DNA of 64,000 nucleotides from Nitrospirota bacterium (GTDB lineage: Bacteria > Nitrospirota > Thermodesulfovibrionia > Thermodesulfovibrionales > Dissulfurispiraceae). Position numbers and translations under genes: made by a program. The stretch covers positions 1 through 64,000 of the forward strand of contig JAFGXL010000001.1 of assembly GCA_016936655.1 (NCBI GenBank), in the 5' to 3' direction. Below are positions 271-3,634 of this stretch, piece after piece (the stretch's first letter is position 1; each line of letters opens with the position of its first letter). The notes beneath the pieces are model-generated. The model had not been told where the DNA came from. It did not search any database and saw nothing but the letters and a program-made list of their open reading frames with translations.

Positions 271-3159
271 ATGAACGAGCTTTGCCAATTTGTATTCAAA
301 AGAAAATCCTACATCGCAGCTCTAGCTATTCTCGTAAGCCTGATTATATCTTTAGGCGGCTATCTATATAGTCAAAATGAAAAAGCCAATATGCGCATAT
401 TAACAGGCAAAGAGCTTGAAGCAATTGCTGAGTTTAAGTCCAGACAGATAACTGACTGGTATCAGGACGAACTTGCTGATGCATCTACCATATCAAAAAA
501 TAGAGTGCTTATTCAGATGGCAAAGCAATTTACCAATACAAGGTCTGAGCATGACAAGATCAATTTAAAAAGCTATCTGAAGCAGATAAAAGAAGAGCAT
601 GATCTGCATGATGTTATATTAACGAATCCTGACGGCACACTACTTGCGTCTGCTAGCGAAGGCATTAAATCTGTTGACAAGGTTTTAGAGTCAGCTGTTG
701 CAAAGGCATTCAGTGAAAAGTCTGTAACAGCCACTGATATATTTATATGCGATATTTATTCTAGTCTTCAGATCGATTTTGTATCGCCACTCTACGAGAC
801 GGGTAAGAATCCTTTTGCTGCGGCTGTCTTTCAGATAAACCCAGAAGATGTGTTATCCCCGATACTTAAGCAATGGCCTGCGCATTACAACACAGCAGAA
901 ACTATGATGGCGCGCAGAGAGAAAGATTCAGCAGTTGTTTTGAGCAGAGTAAAACATTTTAGCGGTGTAGAAAATGATGAAAAAAGTTTTTTGAGGCATA
1001 GAAAATCAGTTGTTGCCAATGCAGCCGTAGGCAAACATGGGCTTTTGGATGTGAATAACTACCGGGGAGAGGATGTGCTTGCATATGCTGCTCCAGTTAA
1101 AGGCACATCCTGGTTTGTTATATCAAGAATTGATAAAAAAGAGATACTCAAAGATCTTAGTTCCAAGGTGTTTTTTACAATGCTTGTCGTCATTTTGCTT
1201 ATAGCTGTTGTTGTGCTCGGGCTGCTCTTCATATACAAGAAGTGGTCTGAGCAGGAGCTTCTGGAGACTGCGATGTTTTACAAAAACCTCTTCGAAAAAC
1301 ATGGCGCTGTAAAGCTGATGCTCGATCCGCAAAATGGAAATATAATTGATGCAAATGACGCTGCTGTCAGATTTTACGGTTGGACCAAAGAAGAACTAAA
1401 GAGTATGAATGTAACCGATATAAATACATTTCCTGAAGATGAGGTTAGGCATCAGATGGATAAGGTTGTAAAACAGCAGCAGATGCATTTTAATTTTAAG
1501 CACAAAAGGGCAGACAATTCTGTGCGCGATGTTGAGGTCTTCAGCAGCCTCATCGTGTCAAAAGGCAAAAATGTGCTTCAGTCGATTATTCATGATGTGA
1601 CTGAAAGAAAAGAGGCAGAAGAAAAACTTACACAGAGCGAAGCAAAGTTTAGGAAGCTCTCGAATGAGTTTCAGGGGCTTTTAAATTCTATACCAGACCG
1701 GATACTACTAATAAATAAGGAGTTTAAAGTGCTCTGGTCGAACAAGGCTGCTGCTGAAACGGCAGACAATTATGGTCAGAATATCGTCGGAGAGTACTGT
1801 TACGGTATATGGCGCAAATTAGATGCTCCATGTGATAATTGCCCGGTAATAAAGAGCTTTTCATCAGCAAAAAAGTCTGAAATTACCAATACTGACAATC
1901 AGGGCAGGACATGGAGAATAGTCGCAGCCCCTCTCTTTGATGAAGACGGCAGTGTCACCAGCGTTATAGAGGTAGCTAGGGATATTACCGATTCATTAAG
2001 AATTGAGGAGCAGCTCAGGCAGGCTCAGAAGCTTGAGGGGCTGGGTCAGCTTGCCGGCGGAATAGCGCATGATTTTAACAATCTGCTCAATGCAGTAATC
2101 GGATATGCGAGTCTGCTTCAGCTGCATATGCCTGAATCAGACTCAAAAAGACATTATGTTGACCAGATAATAGCAGCAGCCATGAGAGGAGCAGCTCTTA
2201 CTCGCCAGATATTGGCTCTGAGCAGAAAACAGCTTCTCGAGATTAAACCTGTAGATGTCAATGAAGTGGTCAAGGGGCTTGAACATATGCTTCGCAGGCT
2301 GGTCAGAGAAGACATAACAATAAAGTACAATCTTCACCATACAGCTATTGTTGTTATGGCAGATGCAGGTCAGATAGGCCAGGTGCTTATTAACCTTGCA
2401 ACAAATGCTGTAGATGCAATGCCGAACGGCGGCAGGCTTCTGATATCAACAGAGCCTTTTTATATGGATGAGCGTTATGTAGAGATGCATGGCTGTGAAA
2501 AAACCGGCAAGTACGCACTGATTACAGTGTCTGATACAGGATCAGGCATCAACGAACAGATAAGAACAAAAATATTCGATCCATTCTTTACAACAAAAGA
2601 TGTGGGCAAAGGAACAGGACTAGGTCTTGCTGTTGTGCATGGGATAGTAAAACAACACAATGGTTATGTAAATGTTTACAGCGAAGAGGGTAAGGGCGCA
2701 ACGTTCAGGATATATCTGCCTATTTCAGAAGCAGAGACTGAAAAGAAATTGCCTGAGCCCCAGCTGAAAGTTGCTGGCGGTACAGAGACAATATTGATAG
2801 CAGAAGATGACGAGACCTTAAGGACGTTGACAGCAACAATACTCTGCCAGTATGGGTATAAAGTGATAGAGGCTGTTGATGGAGCTGATGCAGTAGAAAA
2901 GTTTGCTCAGAAAATAGATGATATAGACTTGGTTATATTTGACGGCATAATGCCCAAAAAGAGCGGAAGGCAGGCATTTGAAGAGGTCAGGAAGATGCGG
3001 TCAGATATAAAAGCCATATTCATTAGCGGTTATTCTGAAGACATATTTGCAAACGACTGGATTGCTGGAGATTCTGTGCTGTTTGTATCAAAGCCGGTAA
3101 AGCCTGATGATCTGTTAAGACATGTGAGGGTAATACTCGACGGCACATCCTGTTCTTAG
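271..3159 (+). CDS. Membrane-bound PAS hybrid sensor histidine kinase with C-terminal receiver
   Basis: A 962-residue hybrid kinase. Membrane segments lie at about residues 14-34 and 301-322 and enclose a periplasmic sensor of about 265 residues that looks Cache-like. Two PAS domains follow at about 335-450 and 465-585; the second contains a Cys-rich stretch (EYCYGIW...APCDNCPV) that could bind a metal or sense redox. The HisKA site is [11 protein letters not shown] with phospho-accepting His about residue 600. The ATPase has an N box ([14 protein letters not shown]) and G boxes ([17 protein letters not shown]). The receiver (ILIAEDD...) has its phospho-Asp about residue 891 in IFDGIMP. The start follows GGAG. 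Internal phosphorelay is expected; the output partner is not visible. Its last codons overlap the convergent rhodanese gene by four bases. Confidence 0.92.
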
Positions 3160-3500
3160 GTATTAAGAACTGTTGGATATCCGGCAGTACGCCATGCACC
3201 CCATCCGCCTTTAAGTGCTGAGACATTTGTGAACCCTGATGAAATAAGTTTAGCTGCCGCACGGGCGCTCGTATGCTCATCGCGTCAGGCTCAGTAAAAA
3301 ACTATTCTCTCATCTTTTGTATGCTTTTTTGAATATGCCTCTATTTCGCTATCATTATCCGGGTCTATATGAATTGCGCCTGGTATCTTTAGCTTGCTTG
3401 ATGCAAATGCAGCGGGCTGCCGGACATCAGCAATAGCTGCAGGTTCATTATTCTCGATAATCCTTTTGAGTTCGTCAATTGATATTCTGGGCACATCCAT
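3156..3500 (-). CDS. Rhodanese-like selenoprotein with Sec-x-Sec active site (two in-frame TGA codons)
   Basis: Read conventionally, this minus-strand gene stops after 69 codons at the TGA at 3291-3293. Reading on in the same frame gives another 45 residues to a TAA at 3156-3158, interrupted by one more TGA at 3285-3287. The continued peptide reads U-A-U-R-D-E-H-T-S-A-R-A-A-A-K-L, then LKGGWGAWRTAGYPT, a textbook rhodanese C-terminal half. Relatives carry Y-C-x-C-x-x-E-x-T-S-A-R here, so both TGA codons sit on the two active-site cysteines. The N-terminal half (ISIDEL, IADVRQPAAF, IPGAIHI) is also typical. The total length of 114 residues matches single-domain rhodaneses. A GGAGG Shine-Dalgarno (3506-3510) precedes the ATG. 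A SECIS-like hairpin follows (separate entry). Two independent nonsense mutations at exactly these codons are much less likely than selenocysteine. No selenocysteine machinery lies in the window. Confidence 0.82.
3259..3276 (-). promoter_or_regulatory. Candidate bacterial SECIS hairpin in the rhodanese-like selenoprotein gene
   Basis: On the minus strand GCA-UA-CG pairs with CG-UGC around a six-base AGCGCC loop. That is a three-pair stem, a bulge, a two-pair upper stem and a hexaloop with G in second place. The E. coli fdhF SECIS apex has the same plan (three pairs, bulged U, two pairs, six-base AGGUCU loop). The loop starts 16 bases after the second TGA and 22 bases after the first, inside the range known for bacterial SECIS elements. 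The fold was made by eye, without energy calculation. Confidence 0.6.
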
Positions 3501-3634
3501 ACCTGCCTCCCGGGTGTAAGAAGATAGCTTTTATTAAGTATATCCAGGCAGAGTTTAAAAATATATTAAAATAAGTGTTATGTTTTTTGTTTTTTATATA
3601 GTTTGGTTTTATGTGGCTGGATTCTGGATAAAAA

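Follow-up and report, generated by a model that had tools for sequence, protein, structure and literature searches.

The window analysed here, a stretch of 64,000 nucleotides from a Nitrospirota bacterium (contig JAFGXL010000001.1), carries on its minus strand a rhodanese-like gene whose reading frame runs through two TGA codons (Table 1). The initial annotation had placed this gene correctly at 3156-3500, leaving out only the strand, and its description of the frame also holds, with TGA at codons 70 and 72, two residues apart, and 42 further residues before the TAA. When TGA is read as selenocysteine (Sec, U) the active loop of the protein becomes FYUAU. There is no obvious signal peptide and, judged from its sequence, the product is a single-domain rhodanese. 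The Shine-Dalgarno-like GGGAGG is found in identical form before the ATG of the orthologue from the same genus. The rhodanese gene converges on a sensor kinase gene (271-3159), and the stop codons of the two overlap at window positions 3156-3159; the genome of the same genus (G001) also has a similar gene in tail-to-tail orientation downstream of the rhodanese, with a tRNA upstream. As developed below, we consider it very probable that this is a genuine double selenoprotein, in which both active-site residues of a C-x-C/U subfamily are Sec.

Table 1. Coordinates of the rhodanese-like gene and of its predicted elements in the window
Feature	Position	Strand	Basis
Rhodanese-like gene, putative double selenoprotein, 114 aa, U70 and U72, ATG to TAA	3156..3500	-	Translation with TGA=U
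ATG start	3500-3498	-	Rhodanese gene frame
First predicted Sec codon TGA, residue 70, end of strand beta4	3291..3293	-	Cys or Sec at this column in all aligned homologues
Second predicted Sec codon TGA, residue 72, canonical rhodanese catalytic position	3285..3287	-	GlpE Cys65 aligned here
Predicted bacterial SECIS hairpin AGCGCC-CGUGC-GGC(A)GCU, apical-loop G at position 2	3252..3269	-	Conserved and covarying in the family; bSECIS limits from PMC13188914
TAA stop	3158-3156	-	Rhodanese gene frame
Shine-Dalgarno-like GGGAGG, 5 nt 5' of the ATG	3506..3511	-	Sequence

The read-through protein matches the Pfam Rhodanese family (PF00581) with 66.3 bits (E 3.8e-18, gathering cut-off 22.2) over residues 8-105, that is, across both TGAs. 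Against the NCBIfam model NF041203 (rhodanese_LYCAU) it scored 114.7 bits for a curated cut-off of 115, and several U-x-U relatives are above it, among them the same-genus orthologue (117.9 bits) and the homologue in genome G353 (125.9 bits). The trait of this family, a C-x-[C/U] loop following an LY strand, is present in the window protein, and both loop columns are occupied by Cys or Sec in all the aligned homologues. Two other families fell below their curated cut-offs for this 114-aa protein, namely GlpE (NF001195, 42.3 bits against 102) and TsoB (NF045694, 27.9 bits against 805), and the DsbD-like fusion that goes with TsoB is also absent. The ColabFold model (pLDDT 96.2) has a rhodanese fold, with a strand at 66-69 followed by the loop and a helix at 76-87, and its best structural match was 3tp9 (Z 17.1); GlpE gave Z 15.7. 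The initial annotation had located the TGAs at the active-site Cys-x-Cys of the rhodanese family. This stands for the subfamily NF041203, in which the site is C-x-C or C-x-U, but not for classical rhodaneses, which have one active-site Cys; likewise, residue 72 is at the canonical rhodanese position and residue 70 is not.

The genome to which the window belongs (1.99 Mb, 97% complete, 42 contigs) has the four components of Sec synthesis and insertion that the initial annotation had singled out, all of them above curated cut-offs in profile searches: SelA (613 bits), SelB (363 bits), SelD (329 bits) and tRNA-Sec (69.7 bits, with anticodon tca according to ARAGORN). The SelD gene (L047:1501-2433, minus strand) has one UGA in frame, within ...KAAGUAGKIG, so that SelD itself is probably a selenoprotein. 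A reassignment of the UGA codon was ruled out, because UGA acts as a normal stop elsewhere in the window, where TGA terminates 17 of the 50 long ORFs. We also scanned the window for other UGA-interrupted genes and found no further convincing candidate. Among the genomes that carry a Sec-containing rhodanese, SelB was found in 29 of 32, versus none of the 16 genomes with the C-x-C form. Of the three lacking it, one is G001, from the same genus and 95% complete, in which no SelB was found above the cut-off even though tRNA-Sec was; this counts against our reading, and the missing SelB is probably an assembly gap.

Comparison with the same-genus orthologue, which has kept both TGAs, indicates purifying selection behind them. 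Codons 73-110 retain 92% amino acid identity (dN 0.06, dS 1.0, dN/dS about 0.06), a sign that the segment is translated; in codons 1-69 the identity is 52%. Both TGAs are also found in independently assembled genomes of other species, and the homologues are not broken elsewhere. A pseudogene, or an assembly or sequencing error by which both codons went from TGY to TGA, might be suspected in a source assembly fragmented into 42 contigs, but we rejected it as exceedingly improbable given that both codons recur in the same genus and in dozens of other species, that dN/dS is so low after the UGAs, and that there is no frameshift and the Shine-Dalgarno and stop are intact.

Read-through homologues were found in many of the 150 relatives compared, mostly with a C-x-U loop; U-x-U loops appeared in eight of the genomes (G000, G001, G002, G008, G016, G020, G086, G137) and additional U-x-U loci in G353, G125 and others. 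We then searched 84,980 species genomes with a DNA pattern of this loop (Y-U-x-U-x-x-[EQ]-x-T-S-[AV]-x-x-A), which matched 61 stretches, every one of which scored as rhodanese when read through (36 to 181 bits), with a profile built from an alignment (A1) that had been made before the scan. By name, these stretches belong to Desulfobacterota/Deltaproteobacteria-like organisms (35), Nitrospirota (10), Poribacteria (8), Chloroflexota (6), Actinomycetota (1) and one other, so that the U-x-U form is present in about 60 genomes (RBG_16_49_23 contributes two stretches) and in at least five phyla. Two Olavius-associated Delta symbionts are among the matches. The C-x-U and C-x-C forms were counted in Nitrospirota only, applying to 396 genomes a pattern that allows Cys or Sec at both sites; U-x-U, C-x-U and C-x-C were all present and U-x-C was not found. 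One apparent U-x-U locus from the looser Nitrospirota pattern (L163, in G266) was dropped as a chance match.

The alignment of homologues called for by the initial annotation gave an asymmetry between the two sites. Residue 72 is Sec in every Sec-containing member seen, and at residue 70 the Sec-containing homologues examined have either Cys or a Sec-UGA and nothing else. In a 128-row tree of weak resolution, parsimony requires at least 16 changes between Cys and Sec at the first position, of which at least 3 are forced by well-supported branches, and a single change at the second. As read from the alignment and this tree, the catalytic Sec (residue 72) is the stable element and its partner (residue 70) is the one that switches between Cys and Sec.

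Bacterial SECIS elements have an apical loop of 3-9 nt that starts 16-37 nt after the UGA, an upper stem of 4-16 bp and a G in the first two loop positions (PMC13188914). The hairpin predicted in the window is within these limits, with a 5-nt loop (CGUGC) that has G at position 2, a stem of 6 bp with one bulge, and a loop start at distances of 21 nt from the second UGA and 27 nt from the first. In the family, the hairpin is made by codons Ser78-Ala79-x-x-Ala82 (e.g., AGU GCC CGU GUG GCA C, also with a 5-nt loop), it keeps the same position in U-x-U and C-x-U genes, and every Sec gene compared has G at loop position 2, leaving out the chance match mentioned above. The wobble bases of Ser78 and Ala82, which are synonymous, covary (53 T:A and 20 C:G pairs, with 7 exceptions, 5 C:A and 2 T:G; odds ratio 106, p 2.9e-12, a value that is overstated since the sequences are related). 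The ten control wobble positions, which share the same relatedness, had no such covariation, and it holds within the low, middle and high GC3 classes. The window gene is itself an exception in the family, with a bulged A in the upper stem (3+3 bp). Its hairpin alone is modestly more stable than synonymous variants (12% were as stable) and the single-sequence fold of the region is weakly significant (z -1.3), for which reason the case for a SECIS rests on the covariation in the family. That C-x-C homologues also keep a partial hairpin counts against it. Since both distances, 21 and 27 nt, are inside the usual range, we infer that a single SECIS would serve both UGAs. With residue 72 already Sec, one base change from TGY to TGA at residue 70 would be decodable without any new signal, and the shared SECIS would in this way have spared the second Sec the need for one.

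Two UGAs six bases apart should lower the yield of full-length protein. It could thus be argued that only residue 72 is Sec, as in the C-x-U type, and that a near-cognate tRNA (e.g., that for Trp or Cys) decodes the first UGA, or translation mostly ends there, with little true U-x-U protein being made. The SECIS covaries identically in C-x-U genes and hence does not have to be adapted to the first UGA, which speaks for this alternative. Nevertheless, we regard it as improbable. Against it stand the restriction of position 1 to Cys or Sec-UGA in the Sec-containing homologues, the recurrence of U-x-U across phyla in genes that are otherwise intact, and the location of the first UGA within the normal SECIS distance. 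The reading that both residues are Sec is the one retained in what follows.

The family itself is already known. Reviews give it as CxU with one Sec (PMC9312934, PMC13188914), and NF041203, the "rhodanese-related (seleno)protein", corresponds to the rhodanese-like form 3, CxU, in the 2026 review (PMC13188914). The window protein shares with it the Y-[C/U]-x-U loop and the downstream E-x-[T/S]-S-A motif, U72 being the family Sec position, but differs in that its position 1 is also predicted to be Sec where the review has a single one (PMC13188914). TsoB is likewise a rhodanese-domain protein with two Sec, arranged however as UxxxxU (PMC13188914), with the rhodanese fused to a DsbD-like part. 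Prx-like UxxU and UxxU metal-binding selenoproteins have two nearby Sec in a redox-type motif (PMC13188914, PMC2398784), but they belong to other domain families and have two residues between the Sec instead of one. The E. coli thiosulfate sulfurtransferases GlpE and PspE have the same single-domain rhodanese fold; in GlpE, however, the active loop differs in sequence and contains one Cys, and there is neither Sec nor a partner residue two positions upstream. No description of a U-x-U rhodanese was found in the literature searched, whose scope excluded Zhang and Gladyshev 2007 (PMC1976440) and Haft and Tolstoy 2025 (PMC12013261). What would be new is the predicted Sec at position 1 within a known (seleno)protein family. 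U-x-U recurs as a double-Sec active site, and its genes are a natural setting for asking if a single bacterial SECIS is enough for two UGAs separated by six bases. Close C-x-U and U-x-U relatives amount to natural Cys to Sec pairs, in which the advantage of having a diselenide instead of a selenenylsulfide can be tested directly. The U-x-U members are probably under-annotated, because under the standard code the annotated protein ends at residue 69, without its active site.

The roles of the two residues can be approached by alignment with other rhodaneses. Cys65 of E. coli GlpE aligns with residue 72 (MAFFT), the Cys of 6mxv does so without gaps, and in two profile alignments the window protein has, just before residue 72, two residues more than GlpE, residue 70 among them. 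Rhodanese active loops begin with the catalytic Cys, are six residues long and, in active enzymes, mostly have Arg, Thr or Ser as their last residue (PMC8533005). Counted from U72 the loop is U-R-D-E-H-T, its Thr being invariant in alignment A2, whereas counted from U70 it would end in Glu. On these alignments residue 72 is the canonical catalytic position, and residue 70 is probably an extra resolving or partner residue. In the mechanism that we propose, U72 would attack a sulfane-sulfur (or selenium) donor to give an Se-S adduct, which U70, two residues upstream, would resolve by forming an intramolecular diselenide with release of sulfide or selenide. An outside reductant would then reset the 70-72 pair. 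In C-x-U homologues a selenenylsulfide would take the place of the diselenide. The strict choice of Cys or Sec at residue 70 is in favour of such a redox use. The initial annotation had suggested redox or selenium chemistry in place of plain sulfur transfer, a plausible idea, and the protein could be a persulfide or polysulfide (or selenium) reductase more than a thiosulfate sulfurtransferase, an assignment that we put forward tentatively.

The more conventional reading accepts the U-x-U site but makes the protein an ordinary thiosulfate/persulfide sulfurtransferase, in which the sulfane sulfur is bound to U72, and U70 has a structural role or guards against over-oxidation, with no diselenide. 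It agrees with the rhodanese fold throughout the model and with the Thr that ends the loop, as in active sulfurtransferases (PMC8533005). The loop, on the other hand, has a nearly invariant Glu75, unlike the usual basic loops that handle thiosulfate, the restriction at residue 70 points to redox use and the score is well below the GlpE family cut-off. On balance we think that this reading is unlikely, though far from negligible.

Some U-x-U rhodanese domains are part of larger proteins. Eight of them (L082, L085, L087, L104, L106, L114, L137, L138), which cluster together in the tree, are joined to a part with exactly eight CxxCH motifs, and the four of these that were scanned all match HAO-like multihaem cytochromes (PF13447). 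The NCBIfam hydrazine dehydrogenase model also matches these fusions, far below its cut-off. Their composition suggests electron transfer and lends the reductase reading some indirect support. Taking the reductase reading together with these fusions, one possibility, which we hold with some reserve, is that U-x-U represents a widespread diselenide rhodanese of several phyla, with two UGAs decoded by one SECIS and two Sec that would reduce sulfane sulfur or selenium species, wired in some lineages directly to an octaheme cytochrome. This would be a dedicated selenium-based system of sulfur/selenium reduction that has not been described yet.

There was no conserved operon partner at the rhodanese loci, where the neighbours differ (sensor kinase, MBL-fold, UvrD, cupin, DUF2238, DUF3786) and give no clue to the substrate. 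Other fusions were found outside the cytochrome group. One protein (L092:3520-4209, plus strand) combines the U-x-U rhodanese with a YHS domain and matches the (seleno)protein model NF041384, and a second (L133:1828-2628, plus strand) resembles it by sequence alone. Finally, a Poribacterial protein (L128:2008-3636, plus strand) carries a U-x-U rhodanese together with a cohesin domain and HEAT repeats.
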